This document shows, piece after piece, positions 28,722-46,132 of a stretch of DNA of 64,000 nt. Position numbers and translations under genes: made by a program. Every line of letters starts with the position of its first letter. Within the stretch, counting starts at the first letter, position 1. The notes under the pieces are model-generated. The model was not told the origin of the DNA. It searched no databases and was given only the letters and a program-made list of their open reading frames with translations. Origin of the DNA: Lachnospiraceae bacterium (lineage in GTDB: Bacteria > Bacillota > Clostridia > Lachnospirales > Lachnospiraceae); NCBI GenBank assembly GCA_910575005.1, contig CAJTCL010000013.1, positions 62,001 through 126,000 of the forward strand, given 5' to 3'.

Positions 28722-28800
28722 CTCGATAATATATATTCATTTTCTATTGTGAAAACGTATATATGGGATCAAGAAATAGTATAAAGAGGAGGATTTGACA

Positions 28801-31800
28801 ATGAGCAGAAGTAAACTCAAAAAACGATTGTTGACTACATTCCTTGCGGTTGCGATGACATTTACTTCCATAAATGTCGGACCGTTTGGTGCAGTCACAG
28901 CCTATGCGGAAGGCACTGCTAAGCTCGCAGCAGGTGATTATTATATTTTAAATACCGCAACAGGCAGATTATTAAATGGTGGTAATTCATGGGGATCACA
29001 GGCAAGTGCGTTGAGGTATGGGCAATTGATAACACTGAGTGTTGTGGATGCCAATGCTGGAACATATTATATTGACAGCCATATTTCTAATAGTGATGAA
29101 AAACATTTTGTGAATGTTGATAATGGTAGTGCATTTATGGATGGGCTGGCAACACCGCTGACAATTGCGGAATGTGGAAATGGTAGTTATACAATTGCTA
29201 ACGCTGATGGTGGATATTTAACAGCTTCTAATGACAACACAATTGTCACATATTTGTCAAAGTCTGAGTTGTCAGAATGGCGTTTTCTTACTCGTGAGGA
29301 ATTGATAGAGGAAGCAGAAAAAAATGCTACAGAGGAAAATCCAGTAGATGTCACATCACTTATTTTAGATTCTGGCTTTGGTAGAAATAATACATATGTT
29401 GATAGATGGAATGACAGTCCTGCAAAAGGTGGGGAAAATACCGACTTCTGTGCTGAAAAGTATCGTGTGGCATTTGATAGTTTTCAGACGATTGAAAATG
29501 TTCCCAATGGTCTATATGAATTAAGTTTACAGGGTTTTTACCGTGAAGATGAAGGCTCACAAGGTCCAGCAAAATACTATATGAATGAGACTGAGAAAGA
29601 TCTTATGAAGATTGAGGCGGATGCAAAAAGTGAGAAAGTTGAAGGTTCTTGGTCTACTCAAAGGGGAGATGTCTATGTACCAAATACTATGACAGATAGT
29701 TCAAATTGTTTTATTGCAGGAGCATACAAAAATGATGCCATTACAGTTTTGGTTAAAGATCACACTTTGAAGATTGGTGTGAAGACTACAGATTCACATA
29801 ATTGGGTGATTTGGGATAATTTTACTTTAAAATTAAAAGACGCTATGACAGATGATGAACTTGCAGCGTATCCAGTTCGATTGGAGATTGATAAGATTGG
29901 CGAGGTTTCCTTAGATCCTGCTTGTAAAGCGAAAATTGACGCAGCAAGAGCGGCATACGATGCCTTGACAGACGCCCAAAAAGCATGTGTAACAAATTAT
30001 GCTACATTACAGGCAGCAGAAGCGGAGTATGACAGACTTTTTGCTGAAGGTGGACAGGAAGCGCTTGATCAAGCGGCTGCCAATGTAGTAATAGATAAGA
30101 TTACTGCAATTGGTACCGTAGAACTTAGTGATGCATGTAAAGCTAAGATTGATGAGGCAAGGACGGCATACAATGCATTGACTGACTCACAGAAAGCGTT
30201 GGTGACAAATTATAATACCTTAGAGACAGCAGAAGCTGAATATAAAAGTCTCAAAGACGCGGCAGATCAGGCGGCAGCGGCAGCAGTGACAACTAAGATT
30301 AATGCAATCGGTACCGTTACATTCACAACAGACAGCAGGCTGGCAATCAAAGGGGCAAGGACAGCATATGACGCCTTGACAGAAGATCAGAAAGCCTTGG
30401 TGACACAAGCACAGCTTCAGGTATTGACAGATGCAGAAGCGAAGTATGCACAGCTTGCAGAGGCAGGAACGAATCTTGCAGATGGCGATTATTATCTTAT
30501 AAATGTCTCAACAGGCAAGTATTTAAACGCCGGCAACAGTTATCAGACACAGGCCAGCCTTAAGAGTTATGGCCAGTTGATGACATTTGCAGCCAATGAG
30601 AGCGATAACACAAGTTATACCATTGATACTCATTATTTAAAGGACAATAAACATTATTTAGGAGCAAATGGGTATTTAGACGCCGCGGAAACCCCAATTA
30701 AGATTGAAAAGTGTGCGAGCGGCAACTTTAGCATTGCCAATGCGGATGATAAATTTCTGACAGCGCCGACAGACGGGAAAAGCACAGTTGTAACTTTTGC
30801 GGCTGAAAAGTCAGAAGCGTCAGAATGGCTTATTTTAACGCGTGATCAGCTTATTAAAAAATTGACAAAAGATATCGCCGAAGGCAATCCAGCAGATGTG
30901 ACATCACTTATTCTGAATCCCAATTTTGACAGATATAATCAATACTCAGATCAATGGAGTGGTGGGATTAAAATAGAAGGAGCAGCAGGCAATTATTGTG
31001 CTGAGGTGTATGGAAAAGTATTTGATTCGATGCAGACGCTTGAAAATGTTCCCAACGGCGTATATGAATTAAGCGTACAGGGATTTTACCGTAAAGAGAA
31101 AGACACAGCAGCTCCTGCAATATACTATATCAATGGGACTGAGGCAGAGCTTAAGACGATTGAAGCAGATGGACGAAGCGAGAAGGTGGAAGGTTCTTGG
31201 AGCACGCAGAGAGGTGATGTTTTTGTACCAAATTCTATGACAGACAGCTCAAATTGTTTTAGCGAAGGTGCATATACCAATGATTTTATCACCGTGACCG
31301 TGACAGATCATACCTTAAAAATTGGTGTGAAGACAACAGATGCTAATAGCTGGGTAATCTGGGATAACTTTATTTTAAGATTAAAAGAGGTAACGGAAGA
31401 AGAAGTGACAGATGCTGAGGTGGCAGCAAGTGTTGTGGCAAAGATTAATGCAATTGGAACAGTTGCATTGACAGAGGAATGTGATACAAAGATCAAAGCG
31501 GCAAGAGCAGCATATGACGATTTGACAGATGCTCAGAAAGCCTTGGTGACAGCCGAACAGTTAAAGGTATTGACAGACGCAGAAGCAGAGTATGCAAGAC
31601 TTCTTGCAGAAGGAGGCCAGGAGGCAATTGACAGAGAGGCTGCCAAGAATGCTGTAGAAAAGATCAATGCAATTGGAACAGTTGCATTGACAGAGGAATG
31701 TGATAAAAAGATTAAAGCTGCAAGAACGGCATATGATGCCTTGACAGCGGCACAGAAAGCTTTAGTGACAGCGGCACAGTTGAAGGTATTGACAGACGCA

Positions 31801-33618
31801 GAAGAGAAATATAATGATCTAAAAACCATTGCAGACGTCATAGAATTGATTGATAGTATTGGAGAAGTTACCTTGGCACCTAGCTGTAAAGCTAAGATAG
31901 AAGAGGCAAGGAAAGCATATGATGCCTTAACAGAAGTGCAGAAGGCCTTAGTGACAGCAGTACAGTTAAAGGTATTGACAGACGCAGAAGAGAAATATAA
32001 TGAGCTAAGAACTATTGCAGACGTCATAGAATTGATTGATGACATCGGAGAAGTTACCTTAGCACCTAGCTGTAAAGCTAAGATTGATAAAGCAAGAGCA
32101 GCATATGACGCATTAACCGCTGATCAGAAAACATCAGTGACAAATTATAATGCATTAGATGAAGCAGAAAAAGAGTATGCCAAACTTCTTAACGAAGGAG
32201 GCCAGGAAGCAGTTGATCAGGCGGCTGCCAAAGAGGTTTTAGATAAGATTGATGCAATTGGCACAGTAGAAGCTACCGAAGAATGTAAAGTTAAGATTAA
32301 TGATGCATGGATGTTATACAATGCCTTGACAGATGTCCAGAAAGCATTGATAACAGCAGAGCAATTGAAGGTATTAACCGATGCAGAAGCTAAATTTGTA
32401 GAACTTATGGGGGATCAGATGCCTTCGGAAGAGCTTAAGAAGGAATTGGCCGAAGCTGTAGAGAATGCAAATGCAGAAGCGTTGGTGGAAGAAGCTTATA
32501 CAAAAGAGAGCTGGCAGGTCTACAAGGAAGCATTAGACACTCTGCATACATTATCACAACAAGTAATTACAACAAAACCAGAGATTGAGACAGCACTAAA
32601 AGCGTTGCAGGAAGCAAGTGACGGACTTAAGGTAGCAGAAGGGTATGAGCCTACCGAAGATCAGAAAACAAGTCTGACATCATCTGTTGATAATGCTGTA
32701 AGTCTGGATGCTGGAAAATACGAAAAGGATGAAAATTGGGCAGCGTTCCAGAAGGCACTTGCACGAGCACAGGAAATTAAAAATAGGCCAAATGCGACTG
32801 CTGCACAGGTAGAGAAAGCAATGAAAGATTTGGAGGAAGCAATAGCAAATCTTAAGCCAATACAGGGTAACAAAACTGTTGATAAGACAGCATTAGAGAA
32901 AGCAGTCGATGATTATGGAAAACTGAAATCATCCAACTATACCTCAACTACTTGGAAACCGTTTAAAAAAGCATTAGATGCGGCAAAAGATGTTTTGAAA
33001 AATGATAAGGCAACCCAGAAAGAGGTAGATAATGCATTAAATACATTAAATGCCAAGAAAAAAGCACTCAAGAAAGTTACAAAAGTCAAAAGTATCAAGA
33101 TCACTGCTGATTATACAAGTGTTGCAGTTGGCAAGAAAGCAAAATTAAAAACTACAGTTAAGCCAAGTAATGCAACAAACAAAGCTGTAAAGTGGTCAGT
33201 AGCTGCAAAAGATAAGAAATATGTATCTGTAAGCAGTAAGGGTGTGGTAAGCACAAAGAAAGCTGGTGCAGGCAAGACTGTGACAGTTACAGCAACAGCA
33301 AAAGATGGCAGTAAAAAGAAGGCAACCATTAAGATTAAGATTATGAAGAATGCCGTTACAAAGATTACCCTGAAAGCAAAAACGAAGAAAGTAAAAGCTG
33401 GTAAGAAAGTAACTGTAAAGGCAACCGTTATAACAAACGGCAAGAAAGCAAATAAGAAATTGGCTTGGAAGTCTTCTAATAAGAAATATGCAACTGTGAA
33501 TGCTAAGGGAGTTGTGACAACAAAGAAAGCCGGAAAAGGTAAGAACGTAACAATTACAGCAACTTCTACAGATGGCACAAATAAGAAAGGAACCATTAAG
33601 ATCAAGATTGTAAAATAA
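28801..33618 (+). CDS. Large secreted repeat protein (1605 aa)
   Basis: Start is the ATG at 28801 after AAGAGGAGG; a TTG two codons earlier is less likely. A signal peptide covers about 1-36 (cleaved near AYAEG). Two copies of a roughly 300-residue unit (about 40-345 and 560-865) contain a YYILNTATGRLLNGGNS-type lectin-like module and a DSGFGRNNTYVDRWN / NFDRYNQYSDQWS galactose-binding-like module. Eight ~65-residue helical repeats (AKIxxARxAYDALTxxQKAL) lie three after the first unit and five after the second. Three FIVAR-type repeats follow, then two Lys-rich Big_2 Ig-like domains. There is no LPXTG or membrane end, so it is probably secreted or wall-bound by charge, perhaps acting as a glycan-binding adhesin. 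Confidence 0.9.
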   Translation: MSRSKLKKRLLTTFLAVAMTFTSINVGPFGAVTAYAEGTAKLAAGDYYILNTATGRLLNGGNSWGSQASALRYGQLITLSVVDANAGTYYIDSHISNSDEKHFVNVDNGSAFMDGLATPLTIAECGNGSYTIANADGGYLTASNDNTIVTYLSKSELSEWRFLTREELIEEAEKNATEENPVDVTSLILDSGFGRNNTYVDRWNDSPAKGGENTDFCAEKYRVAFDSFQTIENVPNGLYELSLQGFYREDEGSQGPAKYYMNETEKDLMKIEADAKSEKVEGSWSTQRGDVYVPNTMTDSSNCFIAGAYKNDAITVLVKDHTLKIGVKTTDSHNWVIWDNFTLKLKDAMTDDELAAYPVRLEIDKIGEVSLDPACKAKIDAARAAYDALTDAQKACVTNYATLQAAEAEYDRLFAEGGQEALDQAAANVVIDKITAIGTVELSDACKAKIDEARTAYNALTDSQKALVTNYNTLETAEAEYKSLKDAADQAAAAAVTTKINAIGTVTFTTDSRLAIKGARTAYDALTEDQKALVTQAQLQVLTDAEAKYAQLAEAGTNLADGDYYLINVSTGKYLNAGNSYQTQASLKSYGQLMTFAANESDNTSYTIDTHYLKDNKHYLGANGYLDAAETPIKIEKCASGNFSIANADDKFLTAPTDGKSTVVTFAAEKSEASEWLILTRDQLIKKLTKDIAEGNPADVTSLILNPNFDRYNQYSDQWSGGIKIEGAAGNYCAEVYGKVFDSMQTLENVPNGVYELSVQGFYRKEKDTAAPAIYYINGTEAELKTIEADGRSEKVEGSWSTQRGDVFVPNSMTDSSNCFSEGAYTNDFITVTVTDHTLKIGVKTTDANSWVIWDNFILRLKEVTEEEVTDAEVAASVVAKINAIGTVALTEECDTKIKAARAAYDDLTDAQKALVTAEQLKVLTDAEAEYARLLAEGGQEAIDREAAKNAVEKINAIGTVALTEECDKKIKAARTAYDALTAAQKALVTAAQLKVLTDAEEKYNDLKTIADVIELIDSIGEVTLAPSCKAKIEEARKAYDALTEVQKALVTAVQLKVLTDAEEKYNELRTIADVIELIDDIGEVTLAPSCKAKIDKARAAYDALTADQKTSVTNYNALDEAEKEYAKLLNEGGQEAVDQAAAKEVLDKIDAIGTVEATEECKVKINDAWMLYNALTDVQKALITAEQLKVLTDAEAKFVELMGDQMPSEELKKELAEAVENANAEALVEEAYTKESWQVYKEALDTLHTLSQQVITTKPEIETALKALQEASDGLKVAEGYEPTEDQKTSLTSSVDNAVSLDAGKYEKDENWAAFQKALARAQEIKNRPNATAAQVEKAMKDLEEAIANLKPIQGNKTVDKTALEKAVDDYGKLKSSNYTSTTWKPFKKALDAAKDVLKNDKATQKEVDNALNTLNAKKKALKKVTKVKSIKITADYTSVAVGKKAKLKTTVKPSNATNKAVKWSVAAKDKKYVSVSSKGVVSTKKAGAGKTVTVTATAKDGSKKKATIKIKIMKNAVTKITLKAKTKKVKAGKKVTVKATVITNGKKANKKLAWKSSNKKYATVNAKGVVTTKKAGKGKNVTITATSTDGTNKKGTIKIKIVK

Positions 33619-33651
33619 TATTATGTAAGACTATTTTCAATCATTAAGCAG

Positions 33652-33687
33652 AGCTGCGCACTAAGTAATTAGTGTGCAGCTTTTTTT
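33652..33687 (+). terminator. Terminator of the large secreted protein gene
   Basis: AGCTGCGCACTAA/TTAGTGTGCAGCT stem, GTAA loop, seven T's. Confidence 0.92.
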
Positions 33688-33750: not shown

Positions 33751-33780
33751 TTGAAAATAAATCTTCAAATGTGCTATAAT
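33751..33780 (+). promoter_or_regulatory. Promoter of the XrtG locus
   Basis: TTGAAA (33751-33756), 18-bp spacer, TATAAT (33775-33780). It predicts a start near 33787 and a leader of about 295 nt. An upstream TTGACT/TATAAT pair (33715, 33741) has a 20-bp spacer and is weaker. Confidence 0.65.
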
Positions 33781-34081: not shown

Positions 34082-34435
34082 ATGAAATACCATCGTTTGA
34101 AGTATCGTTTATGTATGGAGCACAGCTTTGACGGAAAGATAGAAAACAAACATCATCATCTGATTGAGATTGAGATTGTGGCAAGGTATCTGTCAGAAAA
34201 TTTTATGGAATTTACCAGTATGGATTCTATCTTAGAGCAAGTGTTTGCTCCTTATCAGTATCAGTACTTAAACGAATTTCCAGAATTTGAGGGGGATACA
34301 AGTATTGAACATTTGGGCGAGGTGTTTTATTTAAAGGTGAAAGACGCATTAGAGGAACAGCAATGGAGATTTGCCCGTTTTGAGATAAGCGAGACGCCTT
34401 TGCGCATTTATGCGATTGTAGCAGAAACATTTTAA
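34082..34435 (+). CDS. PTPS-like small protein, XrtG-associated
   Basis: 117 residues. It resembles the tunnelling fold of 6-pyruvoyl-tetrahydropterin synthase/QueD: His14, His24 and His26 (EHSF, HHHLIEIEI) could be the zinc triad. GDTSIEHLGEVFY fits the PT.E. helix and RFEISETP carries the Glu. The catalytic Cys expected between the first His and HxH is absent, so ordinary PTPS chemistry is unlikely. It begins the exosortase locus and is 29 bp before the secreted protein. PTPS-related proteins are known companions of XrtG. Role unknown. Confidence 0.7.
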   Translation: MKYHRLKYRLCMEHSFDGKIENKHHHLIEIEIVARYLSENFMEFTSMDSILEQVFAPYQYQYLNEFPEFEGDTSIEHLGEVFYLKVKDALEEQQWRFARFEISETPLRIYAIVAETF

Positions 34436-34464
34436 CACTGAGTCGTAATTAAGGGAGGGTTAAT

Positions 34465-36741
34465 ATGAAACTCAAAACGATTTTCAAAGGAACGGTAGCA
34501 GGTTTTCTGTCAATATCACTATTATTATCGGGAATGCCGGTTATGGCGACAGATTTAGATCCATCGCAGCAGATAGGAGCAGAGGGAGAGGCACCAGCAC
34601 AACAGGAGCAGCCACAACAGCCAGAGGCAGGAGAGGAGACACCAGAACCGACTGGTGAACAGGAGACACCGCCTCAGCCAGAGGCAAAAGAGGAGACGCC
34701 AGATCCATCCGGTGAACCAGAGACACCGCCTCAGTCAGAGGCAGGAGAGGAGACACCAGAACCGACTGGCGAACAGGAGAAGCCACAACAGCCAGAGGCA
34801 GGAGAGGAGATACCAGAACCGACTGGCGAACAGGAGAAGCCACAACAGCCAGAGGCAGGAGAGGAGACACCCGATCCGGCTGGCGAACAGGAGAAACCAC
34901 AGCAGCCAGAGGCAGGAGAAGAGAAACAAGATCCGGCTAAGGCAGAGGAAAAAGACAAGGAAAAAGATAAAGACAAAGAAAAAGATAAAGAAAAAGATAA
35001 ACAGTTAGAGAAGGCTCAAGAAGAAAAAGTGCTGGAAAAAGACACCTTAGCAGAAGAAAAGGTACAGTCAGAGAATGCGCCACAAGTATTTTCATTGGCA
35101 AATCTGCCAATCGTAAATGGCAGTATTGCTATTGATGGAAATATGTCCGATTGGGCAGAGGTTGCTTCACGTCCTTCAGGAGCTTCCAATGTTGATTCCT
35201 GGAAGGTTGCTTTCTCACCAGATAAGAATATGTTATATTTCTGTTATACAGGCAGTGCAAGCACAGAGTGGGATTATGGATTTGCAAGCAATGAAAATAG
35301 TTTTAAGTTTACATATGCAGATGGCCAAAATGGGCAGGATAGTGCACTTTCTGTAAATGCCTGGAATGGCGGCGCAATTGTAAAAAATGCACAGTGGGGT
35401 GATGTTGCCGATGCACAGGCAGCAGTAGTGAATGAAGCGCATGGCAATAATGCAGGCCCATACACAGTAGAGTTTGCTGTTCCAGTCAGCTTTTTCCATA
35501 GTTTGGACTTTACACTTAGCTTTGGAGGAACTACTATCGGTTCTGGAGAGATTGAGCAGGTGAATGGCAATGCAGTTGAGTCAGAGACACCGCCTGTCTA
35601 TACGGGAATTAACATTGATGGAGTTTATTCAGACTGGGCAGCAGTGGCGAAAGCAGAAACCTCATGTCCAAATGATGCGCATAAAGGATGTATTTCTCAA
35701 GTGGCAGCCGTTTTTGATGGTGATTGGCTCTATCTTTATATTAAAGATGGAAAAGATGGCAATGCGTCTGGTGCGGGAAGTCATTCTAATGGTAAGTTTG
35801 CGATCACATCAGATTTAGGTTATGAGACAGATATCCAGTTATCCACAGCACCAGCAGTTAGCGGTGTCAATGGAGCTCAAGTTGCATATGTGGGGGACGA
35901 ATGGGAAGTGGCAATTCCTAAGGATCAGCTTCCAAAATATCAGGAGAGTCTCTCTTTTGGTTTATATTTGGCAGAGCCGATTGTAAATGGAATTGTAAAC
36001 ATGCAGCCAGACAGTGGTAATAATCTGGAAAATCTTTTTAATGGAATTATCTATGATGGTGCCTATGAGGATTGGGAAGATTATGGTCATGTCACCATTG
36101 AGTATGCAACAGCAGGTTCACAGGAAGCACAGGTAGATGCAAAGGGAGCACTGTATTCTGGCGGTGAGCAGATATTTGGTCATGTTGTCACCAATATGCC
36201 GCAGCATCTTCAGGAGGCAGGCGGTGAATTTACTTCTGCGATTACTCTTGCCTTTAATCAGAGTGACAGTGATCTCAAAAGCCATTCCTGGAATCAGCAG
36301 TTGGCATTTTATCCAAGATTTGTGACTGTGGATACAAATGGGAATATCAATTGGAATCCACAGCTTAGCGGTTTGTCAGAGGGCAGTTATGAGTTTCATA
36401 TTGCCTCCACCGATGCATGGGCTACTTCTACCAATGTCAATAATTTGAATGATATGGATCAGCTCTATGGAAAGATGATTATTACAGTCGGTAAGGACGG
36501 GAAGGATGAGATGGAATTTTATCTGGAACTCCCAATGATTGCCAGAAAGCTTGGTGTGGGTGAGACAGATTTAAAGCACATTGCAGCGCAATTTGGTCGG
36601 ATTGGCCAGCAATGGCTGTACACCGCAGGTACCTCAACAGGGCCAATTGTAGGCGTAACACTCTGTATTGCCACTGTGGGATTGGCGCTCTGGTATAAGA
36701 AGAAAAATATTTTTGAAATAATATTTGCTGCTGGTAAGTAG
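34465..36741 (+). CDS. Secreted protein with exosortase-type C-terminus (Firmicu-CTERM-like)
   Basis: 758 residues. Signal peptide about 1-29 (ends VMA). A Pro/Glu/Gln repeat region (about 50-155) is encoded by 57-bp tandem repeats, followed by a Lys/Asp/Glu-rich linker of charged KDK repeats. Three IDGxxxDW modules follow, starting near residues 217, 378 and 530: IAIDGNMSDWAEV, INIDGVYSDWAAV, IIYDGAYEDWED. They resemble CBM9-like carbohydrate-binding domains. The C-terminus has a polar motif TAGTSTGPIVG, a hydrophobic helix and KKKN, the tripartite layout of sorting signals. It is not LPXTG. Most likely substrate of the neighbouring XrtG; Firmicu-CTERM family placement is from memory. Confidence 0.85.
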   Translation: MKLKTIFKGTVAGFLSISLLLSGMPVMATDLDPSQQIGAEGEAPAQQEQPQQPEAGEETPEPTGEQETPPQPEAKEETPDPSGEPETPPQSEAGEETPEPTGEQEKPQQPEAGEEIPEPTGEQEKPQQPEAGEETPDPAGEQEKPQQPEAGEEKQDPAKAEEKDKEKDKDKEKDKEKDKQLEKAQEEKVLEKDTLAEEKVQSENAPQVFSLANLPIVNGSIAIDGNMSDWAEVASRPSGASNVDSWKVAFSPDKNMLYFCYTGSASTEWDYGFASNENSFKFTYADGQNGQDSALSVNAWNGGAIVKNAQWGDVADAQAAVVNEAHGNNAGPYTVEFAVPVSFFHSLDFTLSFGGTTIGSGEIEQVNGNAVESETPPVYTGINIDGVYSDWAAVAKAETSCPNDAHKGCISQVAAVFDGDWLYLYIKDGKDGNASGAGSHSNGKFAITSDLGYETDIQLSTAPAVSGVNGAQVAYVGDEWEVAIPKDQLPKYQESLSFGLYLAEPIVNGIVNMQPDSGNNLENLFNGIIYDGAYEDWEDYGHVTIEYATAGSQEAQVDAKGALYSGGEQIFGHVVTNMPQHLQEAGGEFTSAITLAFNQSDSDLKSHSWNQQLAFYPRFVTVDTNGNINWNPQLSGLSEGSYEFHIASTDAWATSTNVNNLNDMDQLYGKMIITVGKDGKDEMEFYLELPMIARKLGVGETDLKHIAAQFGRIGQQWLYTAGTSTGPIVGVTLCIATVGLALWYKKKNIFEIIFAAGK

Positions 36742-36807
36742 GTATTTTTGATCTGCTATATGGAGCAGATTTTGGAAAGAGAATATAGGAAATAGGAGGA
36801 ATGGGCA

Positions 36808-39267
36808 TTGAAAGACAGAAAGAAGTCATATTATCTGATTTTAATCATGCCCATTCTTTATGCTTTATTGGCATATGGAGTGGCAAAGCTTGTAGGGAAT
36901 AATGGGCAATATCCATGTGGAATAGATACCTTGTGCCATCTCTATAAGGGGGATGTATTATATCAGGCAATTTGTGATGGGGATTGGTGGCCAATTTTTG
37001 ACCCACTGTGGTATAATGGCGTAGAAATGATGCGCTACTGGGCGCCGCTTCCCGTCTATGTGCTGGCGCTATGCCAATTTTTTGGCGGCGGGGATCCAAT
37101 GAGCGGTTTTCTTGTGTTTGTAATGTTTATTTTTTTTGTAGGGGCGATTTCCTGGCTTTATGTGGGCTATAAAGTGAAACGTCCATTTTTTGGAGCTTCT
37201 GTGGGTATTTTATGGTTTTTTATGCCCAACAATTTGATTGCATTGTTTTATGAAGGCAATCTGCCGCGTTCCATTTGTATCGTAATTTTGCCATTGTTGA
37301 TGTATTGGGTGTATGAGTATCTCCAGGAGCAACGCTGGCAGACATTACCGAAAATTTCCCTGTGTTTTGCCCTGACCTCACTCTGTCATTCTGGCTATGC
37401 AGGGATGATTTTAATTTCATTTTTGATATATTTTATCATTGATGCAGTCATTCGCCGTGAATGGCATCGCAGCTTACAAGCTCTATTTGCCCTTCTCTTG
37501 GGCTATATGTTGATTGGTGTCTGGCTGGTTCCCTCTCTGATTGGCGGAATTACCTCGACAGACAGTTCGGAAATTATGGCCGGTTTTTTCCAGAGCTTGT
37601 GGCTTTCCATTAATCCTATGGCACGTTTTCAATTTGGATGTATCCATTTTTATTTTGGTTTGGCAGCGCTGTTATTGTGTATTTTTGGGGTATTCTTAAG
37701 CAAAAAGAAATCTATGCCTGGATTTTGGACAGGAATTATCATATTGATCTGTACATCAAATACATTATACCTTTTGTTGTCAAAGCTGCCGGGAGGACAA
37801 TTTCTGTGGATGCTTCGTTTTATATCCATAGGTTTGTGTATGCTTTTGTTTAGTTTTCTAATCTGGGACACTTTAAAAAAGGGATGGATTGTATTTTTTG
37901 CGGCATTATTAATCTTGGATGCACTGCCTTCCCTGCAGTTGGTTTTGGGAAATCAATCTGGAAAGACGCCAGATCAGATCATGGCGGAGTATTCAGACTG
38001 GACTTTGATTGGTGAGGCAAAGGAAATGACAAAGCAGCGTCTGGCATTGGTGGATGAGAGTGCCTTAGATGCCATGAGTGCTTATCTGATGACTGGTTAT
38101 GGGGAACCAGTGGCCACGACCTATGGGGCGGCATGGCAGTCCTGTACCACAGCGACAAATTTTAAACAGATTGACCGTTCTTTGGAGGAAGGAAATTATC
38201 TGTATATGTTTGACCGCTGTCTGGAGATGGGCAATGATACCGTGGTTGTGCGTTTGGCAATTGTTGAGGATTTGGTTAATTCTCCAGTGGAAGAAATGGA
38301 TGAGGCAGCTTCCCGCGTTGGCTATCGGCTGGTTGATTATAATGATGGATATCGCTTCTATAAACTGGATGTCGATGGAAATTGGGGAACAATCACAAAA
38401 TATCGTGCAATTGGCATTGGCACGGCGGCTCCAGGGATTTCCAGGCAATTTCCAATTGTTGAGGAGACAGAGAGAACCAATCTAAACGAATTTACATTTG
38501 AGGAATTATCAGCCTATGATTTAATTTATCTTGCAGGCTTTACTTATGATGACAAAGCAGCGGCGGAAAAACTGATTACAGATTTAAGTGAATCAGGAGT
38601 TCATATTGTAATTTCTGCAGATGGGATCCCAGATGACAGGGGCAGTCAAAACCAAAGTTTTTTGGGTGTAATCTGTAATGCAGTTTCATTTTCACAGGGA
38701 TATCCAGATTTAAAAACCATTGACGGAATCTTAGAGACAGACTTATTTCCAGATGGATATCGAGAATGGAGTACGGTATATGTGGATGGTTTGGATGATG
38801 TCTGGGGTACTGTGAATGATGTGGAGTGGGATTTACCGTTTTATGGAACTGTGAAAAATGATAATATTGTGGTAATTGGACTGAATCTTACCTATTATTA
38901 CAGTTTAACTAGAGATGAGGGAGTGGGCGCACTGCTTGATCGTGCAATGGATTTAAGTTCTAATGAATTGCCAAAGCGTAAGATTGTGCCATATACGATT
39001 CAGTATGCTCCAGATGAAATTATGATTGATATTGACAAGGATAACGTGAATACTGGGCTTGCTTACCATGACAGTTTTGCAGCCGACAAGGAGATTTATT
39101 CAGAAAATCATTTGACGTTTGTGAAAGCGGGCAAGACGGTTATTTCACTGACTTATCCTTATCTGATACAGGGGATTGCAGTCAGCATAGCGGCAGCATT
39201 CCTGATTTGGGGTTACACGTTAAGTATGCGGTCGCGGCTGCACAATTCTAAGAAGGAAGTGGAGTAA
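36808..39267 (+). CDS. Large polytopic membrane protein, PTPS_related/GT-C-like
   Basis: 819 residues. TTG start with AGGAGG seven bases upstream. Residues 1-400 hold about ten to eleven membrane helices. A loop after helix 1 contains GIDTLCHLYKGDVLYQ and WYNGVEMMRYWAPLPVYV, resembling GT-C lipid-linked sugar transferases (PF10131-like, called PTPS_related). Residues about 400-780 form an extracytoplasmic domain, followed by a last helix. It lies between the secreted substrate and xrtG and may glycosylate or modify the exported protein. The donor and acceptor are not visible. Confidence 0.8.
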   Translation: MKDRKKSYYLILIMPILYALLAYGVAKLVGNNGQYPCGIDTLCHLYKGDVLYQAICDGDWWPIFDPLWYNGVEMMRYWAPLPVYVLALCQFFGGGDPMSGFLVFVMFIFFVGAISWLYVGYKVKRPFFGASVGILWFFMPNNLIALFYEGNLPRSICIVILPLLMYWVYEYLQEQRWQTLPKISLCFALTSLCHSGYAGMILISFLIYFIIDAVIRREWHRSLQALFALLLGYMLIGVWLVPSLIGGITSTDSSEIMAGFFQSLWLSINPMARFQFGCIHFYFGLAALLLCIFGVFLSKKKSMPGFWTGIIILICTSNTLYLLLSKLPGGQFLWMLRFISIGLCMLLFSFLIWDTLKKGWIVFFAALLILDALPSLQLVLGNQSGKTPDQIMAEYSDWTLIGEAKEMTKQRLALVDESALDAMSAYLMTGYGEPVATTYGAAWQSCTTATNFKQIDRSLEEGNYLYMFDRCLEMGNDTVVVRLAIVEDLVNSPVEEMDEAASRVGYRLVDYNDGYRFYKLDVDGNWGTITKYRAIGIGTAAPGISRQFPIVEETERTNLNEFTFEELSAYDLIYLAGFTYDDKAAAEKLITDLSESGVHIVISADGIPDDRGSQNQSFLGVICNAVSFSQGYPDLKTIDGILETDLFPDGYREWSTVYVDGLDDVWGTVNDVEWDLPFYGTVKNDNIVVIGLNLTYYYSLTRDEGVGALLDRAMDLSSNELPKRKIVPYTIQYAPDEIMIDIDKDNVNTGLAYHDSFAADKEIYSENHLTFVKAGKTVISLTYPYLIQGIAVSIAAAFLIWGYTLSMRSRLHNSKKEVE

Positions 39268-39271
39268 ACAA

Positions 39272-39868
39272 ATGTTAAAGTATGTGGCAGGTTTGATTGG
39301 GCTGTTGATCTGGTTATTTATTTTGCATATTCTCAATAAGAGTAAGTTGAATTTCTGGCATTTTTTGATTGGGAGTGTTGGTGCATTTATCTTAATGCTG
39401 GTATTTTTAGAGCCAGTGCTGACACAGCCTTTGGCGCGGATTGTGGCATTGTTGGCAAGTCTTCCTGGTAAGATTGCTGATATGTACAGCGCTCATTATA
39501 AATATGGTGTGATTTTTGTAGAATCATCGGTAGGGGCAATTTCCTTAAAAATTGATTTTGAGTGTTCTGGTATTATAGAGATTATTGCCTATCTGTCTCT
39601 GCTGATATTTTATCGTGTCTATACTGTATATGAGCGTTTTTGCGTTGGAATTTTAGGCGTAATTGCAATGGTGCTGGCAAATGCACTGCGTATTACGGTC
39701 ATTTGTCTCATGATTTATTTTGGAGGAATTGATACTTATTTTATTGCTCACACCTATATTGGCAGGTTGGTATTTTATGCGCTGTCTGTTGTGATCTATT
39801 TCTATGTATTTACGAAACCGCAGATTATTAAGCAAAAGGTGGGAAGTTTCCGGTATGACAATCATTAA
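39272..39868 (+). CDS. xrtG: Exosortase family protein XrtG
   Basis: 198 residues, polytopic with about six helices. The catalytic residues of the exosortase/archaeosortase family are present: Cys98 in FECSGIIE, Arg140 in ANALRITV, and His160 in IAHTYIGR. It is predicted to cleave the C-terminal signal of the protein at 34465 and transfer it to a membrane or surface acceptor. It starts four bases after the upstream membrane gene and overlaps the next gene by 14 bases. Family name XrtG is the Gram-positive subtype that sits with GT2 and PTPS-related genes; assignment is by motif and context. Confidence 0.9.
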   Translation: MLKYVAGLIGLLIWLFILHILNKSKLNFWHFLIGSVGAFILMLVFLEPVLTQPLARIVALLASLPGKIADMYSAHYKYGVIFVESSVGAISLKIDFECSGIIEIIAYLSLLIFYRVYTVYERFCVGILGVIAMVLANALRITVICLMIYFGGIDTYFIAHTYIGRLVFYALSVVIYFYVFTKPQIIKQKVGSFRYDNH

Positions 39869-41219
39869 TAGTTTTTTTAATTCGATCTTGTTTTGGGCAG
39901 CATGGATTATCATTCCATTGATTATGGAGATTATTCCCTCTCTGGGGAGTTATCTAATTTTGGTAAAAAAGAAGCTTTTCCCTCATTATTATGGAGATCC
40001 ATTTATCTGGCCAGAAATTACCTTGATTATTCCGGTCTATAATTCACAGGATTCTTTGCAGGAATGTATTCAATCTATCAATGACAGTGATTATCCCAAT
40101 GACAAGATGCGTATATTTCTAGTAAATAATCAAGGTCGGGATGATTCCTTTCAAGTCTATACAAAGTGTCAGGCCTTGTACCCAGATCTGCTGATGCAGT
40201 GGCTTAACGCAAAACAGGGCAAATCCCGTGCTTTGAATCTGGCATTGTTTAATGCGGATGGAAAATATATTATCCATGTGGATAGTGACGGACAGTTTGA
40301 GCCTCATGCAATCAGTAACATGGTGCGTAAGTTTGAAGCGTGTCCAGATGTAGATTGTATGACAGGGGCAATTCTTACAATGCCAGAACAGATAGAGCAA
40401 TATAAGGGTATTTTGGCAAAGCTGTTGCGGAAAATGGAATTTATGGAATATGCACAGGCGTTTTTGGCAGGGCGTAATTATGCTTCTGAGACAAATTCTA
40501 TCTATACACTTTCAGGCGCATTTTCAGCATTTCGCAAGTCTGCAGTGCTCAAATCACAGCTTTATAATACAGATACCATCTGTGAAGATACAAACATCAC
40601 CTTTCAAATGCGTTATTTACAGCATATTAAGGTGCATATTTGTGAGAATGCGATCTTTTGTGTAGATCCAATTGAGGGAATCAATAAGCTCTATACACAG
40701 CGGCAGCGCTGGCAGCGTGGAAGCTTAGAGGTATCTCATCAATTTTTGGAAAAGGATCTGCGGGTGCACAAGATGTTTACCAATGTCATGGTGCGGACAC
40801 TGATGTATGACCATACGTTTGCATTTCCTAGGTTGATTTGGTATCTGGCTTTATTCTGCCTGATGTGTATGAATTATTCGGCCAAGGTAATTATGTTTTC
40901 TACCGGATTGATTTTTCTTCTGTATATAATCAGCGGATATTTGTATTTTATTTCCACGGTGGGATATTTGGATGAATTTCCGAGTATGAAAAAATATTAT
41001 CGCAGGCATTGGTATGTTGTGCCGTTGCTGCCATTGTTTAATCTTATGGTATTTTTTATCCGTTTTGCGGGTGTGATCAACAGTATCAATACAGACAGTG
41101 CATGGAAAACGCGTACTTTGTCGGATGAGCGCAGAGATTTTGAGGAAGAATTAAAGGCGGAGGCAAAGAAACCTATGAATTTATTACAGAAGGCACGGAA
41201 AGCGGTAAATTACGAGTAG
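39855..41219 (+). CDS. GT2 glycosyltransferase, exosortase G-associated
   Basis: 454 residues from the ATG at 39855; the longer frame from 39804 runs far back into xrtG. Two helices at about 8-35. The GT-A catalytic domain has LIIPVYNSQDSLQECIQS, HVDSDGQFEP (DxD), a GAFSAF acceptor loop, EDTNITFQMR, and QRQRWQRGS (QxxRW). These motifs mark processive-type GT2 enzymes. Three or four helices close the protein. It resembles the GT2 clade found only beside XrtG. It may build a polysaccharide or glycolipid to which the exported protein is joined. Confidence 0.9.
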   Translation: MTIINSFFNSILFWAAWIIIPLIMEIIPSLGSYLILVKKKLFPHYYGDPFIWPEITLIIPVYNSQDSLQECIQSINDSDYPNDKMRIFLVNNQGRDDSFQVYTKCQALYPDLLMQWLNAKQGKSRALNLALFNADGKYIIHVDSDGQFEPHAISNMVRKFEACPDVDCMTGAILTMPEQIEQYKGILAKLLRKMEFMEYAQAFLAGRNYASETNSIYTLSGAFSAFRKSAVLKSQLYNTDTICEDTNITFQMRYLQHIKVHICENAIFCVDPIEGINKLYTQRQRWQRGSLEVSHQFLEKDLRVHKMFTNVMVRTLMYDHTFAFPRLIWYLALFCLMCMNYSAKVIMFSTGLIFLLYIISGYLYFISTVGYLDEFPSMKKYYRRHWYVVPLLPLFNLMVFFIRFAGVINSINTDSAWKTRTLSDERRDFEEELKAEAKKPMNLLQKARKAVNYE

Positions 41220-41232
41220 GTGAATGGGACTT

Positions 41233-42291
41233 ATGAGACGAAGATTTAATTTTTTTATGATTACATTGGTTGTGATTTTTTTTGCAATTGCATCAGATAT
41301 ATTTGTGGTAATCCAATTAAGGAATTATGAGACCAGATTTTTGGAACTCTATGGTTCAGAACAAGATGGATATGTAAATGTTATTTTGGGACAGATCAAT
41401 CGTCTCGGCAAAGATGCGACAGAGGAAGATATCACCGAGATCATCAGCTCTCTGGATGCCACCGCAAGCAGATATTGGACCTTGAGCAAAGGGGATTCGA
41501 TCTTGTTTGTAAAGAGTGTCATAGAGACAAACCGTTATAAAGGGTTTACGGATGGTACTTATTATGCCACGGAAACGGCATCCGATTTTATGAATAGTTT
41601 GGCAGTAAATCAAGTGGATCATAAAATAATATACTTGGATAATGATCGTTTTATTGCTTCTGGAATGATATTTAACTGGCACAAAGAAAGTTACCGTGTT
41701 TGTCTGTTGACGTATGACAGGGTAATTTTGGAGGATAATATCTTACTGGAATGTAAAAATTTAATTATTATTATTCTTTCTATTGTACTGGCCTTGTTAG
41801 TAATTTTAAGTATGGTGATGTCGCGCAAGATCTGCAGGCAGGAAGATCATATTGATAAACAGGAGGAACATATTGTCTGGCAAAATCAGCAGATTGCACT
41901 TTTGGACGAACAGTTAAAACGGGAATATGCTTTTAGTGCCAGTAAACATGTATTTAAAAATACTGTTTTGGATGAATTTCTGGAGACTCTTGATCAGAAA
42001 AATGTCTATCCACTTCATTTTGCAGTTTTTGAGACAGAATCCCTGGAAGCGCGGGATGAATTTTTTGAGCATATGCAGGTAGTTCTAGACAATCATGTGC
42101 TGCGCTTTTCAATGGATGAACGATTGGTGGTATTGATATTTGTCAGATATGATCAGGAGGTCAGCAATAAGATTATTGATTCCTTGGAGAATTGGAATGT
42201 CCGTGGTCTGGGAAATTTGTATTGTGTAGACAATATGAACAGTTATAAAACCCAGTTTGACAAATTTTGGAAGGCGGTGGCTGTCCAATGA
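41233..42291 (+). CDS. Unknown two-helix membrane protein in the XrtG locus
   Basis: 352 residues; not recognised. MRRRF then TM1 (about 6-28), an extracytoplasmic domain (30-175) of mixed alpha/beta appearance (GYVNVILGQINRLG, ISSLDATASRYWTLS, FNWHKESYRVCLLTYDR), TM2 (about 180-200), a short coiled coil with EDHIDKQEEHIVWQNQ, and a cytoplasmic domain of about 120 residues (YPLHFAVFETES, VLRFSMDERLVVLIFV). The outline resembles a sensor with a degenerate nucleotidyl-cyclase-like domain, but no GGDEF or kinase motif is visible. I prefer the ATG at 41233 because the ribosome binding site directly abuts the earlier one at 41224. It is translationally coupled (ATGA overlap) to the next gene. Confidence 0.8.
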   Translation: MRRRFNFFMITLVVIFFAIASDIFVVIQLRNYETRFLELYGSEQDGYVNVILGQINRLGKDATEEDITEIISSLDATASRYWTLSKGDSILFVKSVIETNRYKGFTDGTYYATETASDFMNSLAVNQVDHKIIYLDNDRFIASGMIFNWHKESYRVCLLTYDRVILEDNILLECKNLIIIILSIVLALLVILSMVMSRKICRQEDHIDKQEEHIVWQNQQIALLDEQLKREYAFSASKHVFKNTVLDEFLETLDQKNVYPLHFAVFETESLEARDEFFEHMQVVLDNHVLRFSMDERLVVLIFVRYDQEVSNKIIDSLENWNVRGLGNLYCVDNMNSYKTQFDKFWKAVAVQ

Positions 42292-42770
42292 GAAGAGAAA
42301 AGTTGTATCGGGAATACCGTTTGAAATCGTATTTAAATATGAATCACTATATTATCATCAATGGCAGGCAGGGACAAACACATCCCCATACGTGGGAGTT
42401 TGTGATTACAATCGTGGTTGCTGGTGATCAATTTGTGGAATTTCGCAAGTTTGAGATGTTGATTGAGCAATATCTGGAAAAGTATCAAAACCAAATTTTG
42501 AATACCATTGAGCCATTTGATGTTGTTGTACCAACCATTGAGAATGTGACAGATCAGTTTAATGATGATCTGCGGGAGTTGTTGAGAGAAAATGGCGGTG
42601 AATTAGTGTCCTTAGAGGGAAGTGAGACGCCAACCAGAAGTTATATTGTAAGCCATCGCAATGAGCCGGAATTTATTGATCAGATTGGCAAAATGCAGTC
42701 AAAACAGATTTCTGGAGTAGTTGAGTATGTGGTTGATCAGATTATCAGTGATCGAATAGAAGATTGGTAG
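42288..42770 (+). CDS. PTPS-related protein (XrtG-associated)
   Basis: 160 residues from the ATGA overlap at 42288. YLNMNHYIIINGRQGQTHPHTWEF provides His20, His32 and His34, matching the H...HxH zinc site of 6-pyruvoyl-tetrahydropterin synthase. No Cys lies between them, so the usual catalytic Cys is missing. PFDVVVPTIENVTDQF matches the PT.EN. helix. This fits the PTPS-related domain family known from XrtG loci. The function is unknown. It is the second PTPS-like gene in this locus, with its His spacing closer to the enzyme than the first. Confidence 0.85.
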   Translation: MRREKLYREYRLKSYLNMNHYIIINGRQGQTHPHTWEFVITIVVAGDQFVEFRKFEMLIEQYLEKYQNQILNTIEPFDVVVPTIENVTDQFNDDLRELLRENGGELVSLEGSETPTRSYIVSHRNEPEFIDQIGKMQSKQISGVVEYVVDQIISDRIEDW

Positions 42771-42780
42771 GAGGACTGAA

Positions 42781-43848
42781 ATGAGAGAACAGACTGCGTT
42801 AATTATTCCTGCGCTAAACCCTGAAGAAACATTGCTTGCTTATGTACAGGACTGTATTAGCCACGGATTTTCCCATATTGTGGTAGTTGACGATGGCAGC
42901 GAGGCGGAATATGACACTATTTTTACACAATTAGATAACTGCAAAGAGGTGACAGTACTGCACCATGAGCAGAATTTTGGAAAAGGACGGGCGTTAAAAA
43001 CCGCCTTTTCTTTTTGTAGGCAGCAGGCAAAAAAATGGCAGCTTTTTGGTGTGATCACAGTAGATTCGGATGGCCAACACCATATAGAGGATGTCTGTCG
43101 GATTGCAGAAGCTATGGATGAGACAAGCCTTATACTAGGATGCAGAGATTTGCTGGGTGAAAATGTGCCGCCCAAAAGCCGTTTTGGGAATCTTTTGACA
43201 TGTCGTGTATTTCGCTTATTATATGGGAAATGGATTTCAGATACCCAGACTGGACTGCGTGGGATTCCATTGTCTCTTCTTGAATTAATGCTGCAGGTCA
43301 GTGGGGAACGCTATGAATATGAGACGGAGATGTTGATTATCATAGTGAGAAATAAGATCTCAATCAAGGAAATTCCAATTGAAACGATTTATATGGAAGA
43401 AAATGCGGGGACACATTTTCGGCCAGTTGTGGATTCGGTGAAAATCTATGCAGTGATGCTAAAGCGTTTTTTGTTGTTTATCCTTTTTTCACTCAGTTCT
43501 TTTCTTTTGGATGTATTGGTGTTTTCGGTACTAAATTATTTTGTATTTACAAAGCTGTCCCAGGTAGAGCGGATTTTTTGGGCAACCGTAGCGGCACGCA
43601 TTTGTTCTTCTATTTTTAATTTTACCATGAATCGCAGGGTGGTATTTCAAACCAGCAGCAGGATTGGAGTACAGATTTTAAAATATTATTGTTTAGCGGC
43701 AATACAAATGTTAGTGTCAGCAAAGCTAGTCACTGTGTTGGTAAATATGATTCCATTTGCAGATACTGTGGTAAAAATGATTGTAGATACCATTTTATTT
43801 TTAATTAGCTACCAGATTCAGCAGCGCTGGATTTTTAAGTCAGAATAG
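42781..43848 (+). CDS. DPM1-like GT2 glycosyltransferase fused to GtrA domain
   Basis: 355 residues. The N-terminal GT2 domain (about 1-225) has LIIPALNPEETLL, VVVDDGSEAEY, NFGKGRALKTAF, TVDSDGQH (DxD) and SDTQTGLRGIP. The C-terminal part (about 230-355) has four helices with SSIFNFTMNRRVVF, the GtrA fold that flips polyprenyl-phosphate sugars. Such fusions make polyprenyl-phosphate hexose and move it across the membrane. In this locus it would supply the sugar donor for the GT-C-like protein. GGAGG precedes ATG. Confidence 0.92.
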   Translation: MREQTALIIPALNPEETLLAYVQDCISHGFSHIVVVDDGSEAEYDTIFTQLDNCKEVTVLHHEQNFGKGRALKTAFSFCRQQAKKWQLFGVITVDSDGQHHIEDVCRIAEAMDETSLILGCRDLLGENVPPKSRFGNLLTCRVFRLLYGKWISDTQTGLRGIPLSLLELMLQVSGERYEYETEMLIIIVRNKISIKEIPIETIYMEENAGTHFRPVVDSVKIYAVMLKRFLLFILFSLSSFLLDVLVFSVLNYFVFTKLSQVERIFWATVAARICSSIFNFTMNRRVVFQTSSRIGVQILKYYCLAAIQMLVSAKLVTVLVNMIPFADTVVKMIVDTILFLISYQIQQRWIFKSE

Positions 43849-44077: not shown

Positions 44078-46132
44078 ATGAAAAGAGAAATCAGGTTCAA
44101 AGGACAGTTGAAGAATTACATGTACTGGCCGCTGATGTTGACCATTTTGATTGTATTGCTGAATTTGCCTTTGTATTATTTTGATCAAAGGGCTGGTATC
44201 TGCGTGTCTGTATTTGCAGGATGCTATTTTTTGATTGTACTGGGGCTTTTTCTGGCAAATCGTTCCGTACTGCGCAGTGAAGTAATCAATTTCGCTACTC
44301 AATATGGTACCGTACAAAAAAAGCTGTTAAATGAATTTGAAATCCCTTATGCGCTGTTGGATTTCAATAGCAAGATTTTGTGGATGAATGAGGCATTTTC
44401 AGTGATTACAGAGAAGGATAAGCAATATCATAAATCCATTGCCACAATATTTCCCTCTATTACAAGAGAACTTTTGGCCAAAGAAGAAAACAGCAATCAA
44501 ATTTTGGTAGAGTGGAAGGATCGAATTTATCGGGCAGTTGTGGGAAAATTGTATTTTGATGAAGAGAGCAAAGAGGGAAGTATGATAGAGTTAGAAGCCA
44601 AAGATCAATATCTGATGGCGCTCTACTTGTTTGACGAGACGGATCTGCATCATTATATTCAGGAGAATAAGGAACAGCAGCTTGTGTCTGTCTTGATTTA
44701 TATTGATAATTACGAGGAGGCGCTGGAAAGTATTGAGGAAGTAAAGCGTTCCCTGTTGGTGGCTCTGGTGGACCGAAAAGTCAGTAAATATTTTTCAGAG
44801 CGGGACAGCATTATCAAAAAAATAGAAAAAGACAAATATTTTGTGGTGTTTAAGCATAAGTACTTAGAAGAGCTGATCAAGGACAAGTTCAGCATTTTGG
44901 AAGAAGTTAAGACCATCAAAGTGGGAAATGAGATGGCAGTGACCTTGAGTATCGGCGTGGGGATTAGCAATCTCAATTATTGTCAGAAATATGATTATTC
45001 ACGGATGGCCATTGACCTTGCTCTGGGCAGGGGCGGTGATCAGGTAGTCGTCAAAGAGGGCGAAAAAATTTCTTATTTTGGAGGAAAGTCCAGACAGGTA
45101 GAGAAGATGACACGTGTAAAGGCAAGAGTAAAAGCACATGCCTTGCGTGAGATTTTTGAGACCAGAGAACATGTCTTTATTATGGGCCATAGTATTTGTG
45201 ATATGGATGCATTTGGCGCAGCAGTGGGAATTTATTGTGCAGCGCAGGTGATGGGCAAAAAAGCGCATATTGTATTAAATGAAGTTACATCCTCACTGCG
45301 CCCAATGAAGGAATGTTTTACAGAAGATAAAGGATATCCGCCCGATATGTTTCTGCGCAGTGAGAAGGCGCTTGAGCTGGTGGACTATCGCAGTGTGGTG
45401 GTGGTAGTAGATACCAACCGCCCCAATTATACAGAATGCCCTGAACTTTTGGGGCGCAGTAAGACAATTGTGGTCTTTGATCATCACAGACAGGGCAGTG
45501 AGGTCATTGAAAATGCAGTCCTCTCCTATATTGAGGCATATGCCTCATCTACCTGTGAAATGGTTGCGGAAGTGCTGCAATACTTTAATGAGAATATTCA
45601 TCTCAAACCAAATGAGGCCGATAGTATCTATGCGGGTATTTTAATTGACACCAATAACTTTATGACAAAAACGGGTGTCAGAACCTTTGAGGCAGCGGCA
45701 TACCTTAGGCGCTGCGGGGCAGAGGTGACAAGAGTGCGCAAGCTGCTTCGAGATGATATGGCAGCTTATAAGGCGCGGGCAGAGGCTGTCCGTCATGCAG
45801 AAGTGTATCGAGGAGCATTTGCCATTTCCATTTGTCCGGCAGATCCAAGAGTGGAAAGCCCGACGATCGCTGGTGCACAGGCGGCAAATGAATTATTGAA
45901 TATTGTTGGGATTAAGGCGTCATTTGTACTTACAGAGTATAATGAAAAAATATACATCAGCTCCCGTTCTATTGATGAGATTAATGTGCAATTGATTATG
46001 GAGCGGATGGGCGGCGGCGGACATTTGAATGTGGCAGGCGCTCAGCTTAAAGATTGCAGTGTTTGGGAAGCAAAGACAAAAATCCAGGAGACATTAGATA
46101 AAATGCTGGAGGAAGGAGACATAGAAGTATGA
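44078..46132 (+). CDS. gdpP: Cyclic-di-AMP phosphodiesterase GdpP
   Basis: 684 residues. Two N-terminal helices, a PAS domain (about 90-180), a degenerate GGDEF domain (about 185-330), then DHH (HSICDMDAFGAA, VVVDTNRPNY, VFDHHRQGSE, AGILIDTNNFMTKT) and DHHA1 (MGGGGHLNVAGAQL). It hydrolyses c-di-AMP to pApA and so affects potassium balance, wall stress and beta-lactam tolerance. The GGDEF domain lacks the GGDEF signature, as usual for this protein. The stop overlaps rplI by four bases. Confidence 0.95.
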   Translation: MKREIRFKGQLKNYMYWPLMLTILIVLLNLPLYYFDQRAGICVSVFAGCYFLIVLGLFLANRSVLRSEVINFATQYGTVQKKLLNEFEIPYALLDFNSKILWMNEAFSVITEKDKQYHKSIATIFPSITRELLAKEENSNQILVEWKDRIYRAVVGKLYFDEESKEGSMIELEAKDQYLMALYLFDETDLHHYIQENKEQQLVSVLIYIDNYEEALESIEEVKRSLLVALVDRKVSKYFSERDSIIKKIEKDKYFVVFKHKYLEELIKDKFSILEEVKTIKVGNEMAVTLSIGVGISNLNYCQKYDYSRMAIDLALGRGGDQVVVKEGEKISYFGGKSRQVEKMTRVKARVKAHALREIFETREHVFIMGHSICDMDAFGAAVGIYCAAQVMGKKAHIVLNEVTSSLRPMKECFTEDKGYPPDMFLRSEKALELVDYRSVVVVVDTNRPNYTECPELLGRSKTIVVFDHHRQGSEVIENAVLSYIEAYASSTCEMVAEVLQYFNENIHLKPNEADSIYAGILIDTNNFMTKTGVRTFEAAAYLRRCGAEVTRVRKLLRDDMAAYKARAEAVRHAEVYRGAFAISICPADPRVESPTIAGAQAANELLNIVGIKASFVLTEYNEKIYISSRSIDEINVQLIMERMGGGGHLNVAGAQLKDCSVWEAKTKIQETLDKMLEEGDIEV

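Follow-up and report, generated by a model that had tools for sequence, protein, structure and literature searches.

What does an exosortase do in a bacterium with a single membrane, and why does its gene sit among those for sugar-transfer enzymes and pterin-synthase-like proteins? A 64,000-nucleotide stretch of a Lachnospiraceae genome (contig CAJTCL010000013.1, positions 62,001 to 126,000; hereafter the window) raises this question through an eight-gene operon at window positions 34082-43848, which encodes an XrtG exosortase, its Firmicu-CTERM substrate, sugar-transfer enzymes, a predicted membrane sensor and two PTPS-like proteins. Sequence analysis has pointed to exosortases since 2006; our literature searches found no published function for a Gram-positive exosortase, and the window locus is a member of the catalogued, functionally little-studied XrtG family. 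Here we find that the XrtG, PTPS and GT-C genes form a real module, and we lean, with some reserve, towards a role for the operon in synthesizing a surface polysaccharide and fixing it to the cell by means of an exosortase-processed, glycan-binding protein, a process that a surface sensor would control.

An XrtG operon that recurs as a module

The eight genes are nearly contiguous and all on the plus strand, spaced by at most 66 bases or slightly overlapping. The block lies at the coordinates assigned to it in the preliminary description of the window, apart from two corrected starts: that of the GT2 gene, which is likely 39855 rather than 39804 and falls within the 3' end of xrtG, and that of PTPS2, which is likely 42288 rather than 42267. 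The features are as follows, with NCBIfam or, for PF10131, Pfam cut-offs in brackets.

34082..34435, plus strand: PTPS-like protein 1 (PTPS1), 117 amino acids (aa); TIGR03112 70.4 bits (69.35), PF01242 43 bits
34465..36741, plus strand: Firmicu-CTERM substrate, 758 aa; TIGR04145 118.5 bits (50), in three stretches
35104..35571, plus strand: predicted CBM9-type domain of the substrate
36625..36738, plus strand: C-terminal sorting signal of the substrate, AGTSTGP with hydrophobic helix and basic residues, by 40-row alignment
36808..39267, plus strand: GT-C membrane glycosyltransferase, 819 aa, TTG start; PF10131 440.6 bits (26.4)
39272..39868, plus strand: XrtG exosortase, 198 aa; TIGR03110 176.2 bits (102.75)
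39563..39565, plus strand: XrtG Cys98 codon; cysteine in 88 of 95 aligned XrtG
39689..39691, plus strand: XrtG Arg140 codon; invariant, 95 of 95
39749..39751, plus strand: XrtG His160 codon; invariant, 95 of 95
39855..41219, plus strand: XrtG-associated GT2, processive type (QRQRW); TIGR03111 607.3 bits (363.95)
41224..42291, plus strand: predicted membrane sensor with helix, Cache-type extracellular domain, helix, coiled coil and degenerate GGDEF fold, by AF2 and VIA-align
41332..41739, plus strand: predicted Cache-type sensor domain, residues 37-172
41944..42288, plus strand: predicted degenerate GGDEF-fold domain, residues 241-355
42288..42770, plus strand: PTPS-like protein 2 (PTPS2); TIGR03112 123.8 bits (69.35)
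42345, 42381 and 42387, plus strand: codons of the PTPS2 zinc-type histidines; three in 27 of 27 aligned PTPS2
42781..43848, plus strand: GT2 fused to GtrA, polyprenyl-phosphate sugar transferase type; PF00535 60.5 bits, PF04138 42.8 bits

The gene identities first proposed from the letters were right: all four profiles suggested for checking them, those of the XrtG/Firmicu-CTERM system (TIGR03110, TIGR03111, TIGR03112 and TIGR04145), score over their cut-offs, only marginally so in the case of PTPS1, and the protein at 39272 is an exosortase whose Cys98, Arg140 and His160 had been placed correctly. XrtG, TIGR04145 and PF10131 each have a single match in the whole genome, bearing out a dedicated exosortase-substrate pair, whereas PEP-CTERM genomes carry many substrates, with a median of 8 per genome (PMC1569441, excerpt). 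By XrtG, the closest named relative is Lachnospiraceae isolate C77 (97% identity), which belongs to a mouse gut collection.

The gene set is not a chance assembly, because PTPS-like, GT-C and XrtG genes co-occur in the same genomes and their loci are syntenic. Across a phylum sample of 398 genomes (at least 90% completeness asked), TIGR03112 exceeds its cut-off in 13 and PF10131 reaches E<1e-30 in the identical 13, while XrtG reaches E<1e-20 in 14, namely these 13 and one genome, G071, whose locus looks damaged; hypergeometric values for the co-occurrence, uncorrected for kinship of the genomes, are 1e-24 and 2e-23. Looser searches add two genomes for XrtG (16 of 398 at E<=1e-3) and two for PF10131, one of them barely over cut-off at 26.7 bits, and bring TIGR03112 to 103 genomes at E<=1e-3, 90 of them under cut-off. 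The earlier remark that such loci are rare in Gram-positives thus stands at the level of the phylum (16 of 398) but not within the window's own genus, where XrtG is common (21 of 29 genomes); the system was also found in many other gut and rumen Clostridia.

Synteny was assessed in the best 80 of 154 confirmed XrtG stretches from titled records, 60 of which have enough flank (at least 5.5 kb upstream and 7.5 kb downstream). XrtG and PTPS2 are present in 60/60 of these, GT2 and GT-C each in 59/60, the substrate in 58/60, the sensor in 53/60, PTPS1 in 40/60 and GT2-GtrA in at least 9/60 (>25 bits). The seven sensor-negative loci comprise three in which a protein of matching layout had escaped the search (L114, L118 and L123, read by eye), three with a joint sensor-PTPS form (L113, L116 and L126) and L110. 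The last looks like a locus collapsed by deletion: at L110:8010-11093, inspected by eye, a 177-aa frame seems to join the start of GT2, part of PTPS2 and the end of GT-C, with XrtG intact.

Sugar-transfer enzymes and the exosortase substrate

The XrtG-linked GT2 retains DxD and QxxRW, the motifs of processive GT2 synthases, in 78 of 78 orthologs, and 77 of the 78 also have a TED-like motif. Among characterised families the poly-GlcNAc synthase PgaC/IcaA scores highest (TIGR03937 at 120 bits, covering residues 65-404 of the longer frame); both have membrane helices, but the window protein falls far short of the equivalog cut-off of 422.3 bits. Thirteen loci carry long GT2 forms of 946-994 aa (e.g. 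L074:10581-13478), and all 11 of those scanned (L077 and L108 were left out) end in a sulfatase-superfamily domain. In the one long form scanned with NCBIfam, the best specific family is phosphoglycerol transferase I, a type that decorates membrane-derived glucans, at 170 bits against a cut-off of 572. The GT-C protein carries GIDTLCHLYK in its first loop and passes PF10131 by a wide margin, and the NCBIfam models closest to GT2-GtrA, AglJ and PpgS, both score under cut-off. By eye, L120:3279-5622 and L121:11908-14317 each have, inside the operon and between the genes of the XrtG-linked GT2 and PTPS2, one gene for a further GT2 and another for an unfused GtrA-like protein.

The protein at 34465 comprises a signal peptide, a Pro/Glu-rich linker, beta-sandwich domains and the C-terminal sorting signal, whose tripartite nature had been noted from the outset and which is complete, with motif, helix and basic tail, in an alignment of 40 chosen substrates. 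A structure model built from 22 rows contains, by VIA-align comparison, a CBM9-type fold for which neither a Pfam CBM9 match nor a PDB profile match was found; profile searches likewise found no PDB sequence relatives of the substrate as a whole. From the predicted fold, we consider this domain a putative glycan binder. Substrates are much shorter in L113, L116, L118, L121 and L126 (235-257 aa), and among distant relatives the substrate domain takes three forms: a stand-alone protein that has a sorting tail of its own (L149, L171 and L176), the C-terminus of a PTPS-GT-C protein (L146, L148 and L155) and the N-terminus of XrtG itself (L147, L152, L154, L156, L157, L160, L161, L173, L177 and L178, where L160 and L161 are one genome and L178 is truncated by the contig end). 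Fourteen of these relatives align along the entire substrate domain (L157 and L161 lie outside the alignment), and GDIQWxPxP precedes the helix in ten of the 14 rows, with variants in L178, L146, L148 and L155.

Substrate-XrtG fusions lacking Cys98

From its triad of Cys98, Arg140 and His160, the window XrtG is a putative protease or transpeptidase acting on the C-terminal signal. E97, S99, G100, E103, N137, G164 and R165 are likewise invariant across the 95 aligned rows. Cys98, in contrast to Arg140 and His160, is lost in all ten substrate-XrtG fusions of the distant relatives, which have Asn (nine) or Ser (one) in its place; cysteine occupies position 98 in 91 unfused XrtG (L159 included, the window excluded). 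It is also kept in a further in-frame Firmicu-CTERM-XrtG fusion from a Lachnospiraceae metagenome bin (L107:8448-10316, plus strand, 623 aa; TIGR04145 86 bits, TIGR03110 170 bits), a possible self-processing exosortase. The joined XrtG-GT2 frame of L159 was not accepted as a true fusion and was treated as a damaged copy, since its GT2 lacks the middle part.

Nine of the ten Cys98-less fusions were placed in an XrtG tree of 62 rows (L159, the partial L178, duplicate sequences and roughly half of the rows from Lachnospiraceae were omitted), where all fall in one clade with support 97/88. Repeated independent loss of Cys98 is hence not supported, and fusion and loss represent one correlated event that is not replicated. 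The fused gene is the sole exosortase/archaeosortase-family match (TIGR04178) in nine genomes, seven of them at least 90% complete and one (G447) with two copies of it, and GT2 and PTPS-GT-C genes remain alongside where the contig permits. With dN/dS of 0.06-0.13 over the XrtG part in the five of six pairs that allowed its computation (dS is saturated in one of the five), the Cys98-less fused XrtG is under purifying selection. Our literature searches did not find such fused, Cys98-less forms described.

What selection maintains in these proteins can be read in two ways. It is possible, although we hold this with rather less than even confidence, that the essential job of XrtG is to hold the glycan-binding substrate beside the polysaccharide-making complex, with cutting dispensable and the Cys98-less fusion serving as a scaffold. 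Counting against a scaffold is a second cysteine, Cys105, which lies seven residues past position 98 (ECSGLLESC or E[NS]SGxxExC) and is present in all ten fusions. Since the same cysteine also occurs in five unfused sisters that retain Cys98 (L149, L171, L172, L174 and L176), the nucleophile may have shifted along the helix by some two turns, and Cys105 may have taken over from Cys98 in the fusion clade.

The membrane sensor and the PTPS-like proteins

The membrane protein at 41224, at first described as of unknown function, matches no Pfam family over cut-off, and Pfam gave only weak matches for 38 orthologs (most commonly DUF6377, in 8/38; best E 0.00025). Comparison of its AF2 model by VIA-align recognised Cache-type and GGDEF folds, and we accordingly predict a Cache sensor with a degenerate GGDEF domain. 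Because the GG[DE]EF active-site motif occurs in none of the 38 aligned orthologs, we reject an active diguanylate cyclase; a loose RxxD I-site pattern is found anywhere in 3/38 and, by eye, does not fall where it would be expected in the window protein. We know of no exosortase in the ydaJKLMN operon of Bacillus subtilis or the pssA-E operon of Listeria. Both resemble the window operon in combining polysaccharide genes with a degenerate-GGDEF membrane protein or receptor, but excerpts of PMC7064775 and PMC4125290 describe c-di-GMP binding by YdaK and PssE via the I-site, whereas the window sensor shows no clear one and has a predicted Cache domain in place of the four transmembrane helices of YdaK.

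The PTPS-like proteins retain the three histidines that serve as zinc ligands in PTPS enzymes in 27/27 PTPS2 and 11/12 PTPS1 rows chosen for alignment, the exception being the collapsed L110. Like QueD and other PTPS proteins they match PF01242 over cut-off, and they mostly keep the P-[TS]-x-E-N and S-E-T-P motifs, the pterin-holding sites of the family. They differ in the catalytic motif, which reads CxxxHGH in PTPS-I, CxxxxxHGH in PTPS-II and ExxHGH in PTPS-III (PMC5041015, excerpt): a His...HxHxW pattern fits 75 of 76 PTPS2, with glycine at -3 in 74 of the 75, giving GxxHxH, and a catalytic Cys at -4 or -6 or Glu at -3 is found in none of the 75. We reject a role as queuosine or folate enzymes, both for want of these catalytic motifs and because the genes keep company with XrtG and GT-C.

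Gene fusions connect these proteins to their neighbours. PTPS is fused N-terminal to GT-C in 15 open reading frames (by motif), and it is joined to a two-helix membrane domain at the position of the sensor gene in L158, recognised by the sensor profile (34 bits), and in L113, L116 and L126, recognised by layout. Together with the sequence motifs, this would fit PTPS-like proteins that act as a non-enzymatic, ligand- or protein-binding coupler of sensor and GT-C, and it suggests why pterin-synthase-like proteins should, oddly, be found together with membrane glycosyltransferases.

Flanking sequences

Directly upstream of the operon, at 28795-33618 on the plus strand, lies a gene for a 1607-aa protein of secreted type that bears FIVAR and Big_2 repeats; a relative was seen in L047 only among the 80 loci, most of them with only about 5 kb upstream. 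Between this gene and the operon, a terminator-like 15-pair hairpin (33650-33683) precedes a promoter-like site (33751-33780). Both are consensus matches only, and sites of the promoter-like kind number 43 against 30 in shuffles. Just downstream, at 44078-46132 on the plus strand, is a gene for a GdpP-type c-di-AMP phosphodiesterase (GGDEF_GdpP, DHH and DHHA1, with PAS under cut-off), which is found in 14 of the 60 loci with flank.

Discussion

The window operon combines elements of several known systems. In Lactiplantibacillus plantarum the core described as an 'Exosortase G system' consists of substrate, XrtG and two glycosyltransferases, with expression data that compare strains differing in aggregation (PMC12854382, excerpt), and a table entry in PMC8951740, likewise an excerpt, names an 'exosortase G system-associated' GT2; to this core the window adds GT-C, the Cache/GGDEF-like sensor and two PTPS-like proteins, parts for which our searches of the XrtG literature found no functional model. 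As in the EpsH (XrtA)/PEP-CTERM system excerpted in PMC1569441, there are conserved Cys, Arg and His residues, a tripartite C-terminal signal and polysaccharide genes at the locus; unlike it, the substrate has no PEP motif, the host has a single membrane, and sensor and PTPS-like parts are present.

We propose that the processive-type GT2 (39855), as its QRQRW motif and family suggest, assembles a chain from a nucleotide sugar and extrudes it, while GT2-GtrA (42781) would make a polyprenyl-phosphate sugar that GT-C (36808) would move onto the chain outside the membrane as a side group. The secreted substrate (34465) would be retained by its C-terminal helix until XrtG, judging by its triad and the signal, cuts near AGTSTGP and transfers it to an acceptor, which may be lipid, wall or the chain itself; the displayed CBM9-type domain could then bind the chain and retain it on the cell. 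Finally, the Cache sensor (41224) would report an outside ligand, and the PTPS-like zinc-site pseudo-enzymes may couple sensing to synthesis by binding both sensor and GT-C. This polysaccharide role draws on the profile matches, the processive GT2 motif, the sulfatase-superfamily fusions, the CBM9-type and sensor folds, the synteny and the co-occurrence of PTPS-like, GT-C and XrtG genes, and the coupling on the relatives that fuse PTPS-GT-C, PTPS-GT-C-substrate and sensor-PTPS. By analogy it is also supported by Gram-negative exosortase systems, which have links to biofilm and to the retention of polysaccharide: PEP-CTERM proteins are reported to lend stability to extracellular polysaccharide on the cell surface (PMC12188702, excerpt), and Flavobacterium biofilm needs an exosortase gene (PMC10936215, excerpt).

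Two other assignments of the sugar enzymes have to be weighed. The preliminary description envisaged a system that cuts, attaches and glycosylates a surface protein, of which the exosortase-substrate pair stands but glycosylation is not the best-supported role of the sugar enzymes. In that scheme GT2-GtrA would supply a polyprenyl-phosphate sugar as the donor from which GT-C adds sugar to the substrate at its Pro/Glu/Thr-rich linker, XrtG would then anchor the glycoprotein and GT2 would only extend the glycan. PF10131 does belong to a GT-C clan with STT3 and PMT and is related to the TMTC O-mannosyltransferases (PMC7801869, excerpt), and the substrate domain is fused to the GT-C C-terminus in three relatives; yet the processive motif is kept in every GT2 ortholog, each scanned long GT2 carries the sulfatase-superfamily domain, the 235-257-aa substrates leave no space for a long linker and the donor maker appears in only nine of the 60 loci, itself a lower bound. 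On balance we judge protein glycosylation unlikely.

The sugar enzymes might instead make the acceptor of XrtG, a glycan on a lipid or in a polymer to which the processed substrate would become covalently attached by its C-terminus, giving a glycan-anchored surface protein, and here the adjacency and overlap of xrtG and GT2 in the window and the presence of both in 59/60 loci are consistent with such a link; substrates of archaeosortases are reportedly lipid-anchored. No acceptor chemistry can be read from the sequence, however, a CBM9-type domain would be superfluous if the glycan were linked covalently, and the Cys98-less fusions keep GT2 and PTPS-GT-C nearby even though transfer is doubtful there, so that we also regard this explanation as improbable.

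With synthesis and cell-surface retention of a polysaccharide as the preferred role, each formerly unknown gene of the operon receives a testable function, as sensor, zinc-site pseudo-enzyme, glycan binder or side-chain enzyme. The Cys98-less substrate-XrtG fusions further ask whether exosortases need their cysteine: if Cys105 took over, they would show an exosortase whose catalytic residue has been relocated in nature, and if the scaffold interpretation is true, one that naturally does without the residue presumed to be catalytic. Common in the window's genus and found in many further gut and rumen Clostridia, the system may shape the surface that these bacteria present to hosts and phages.

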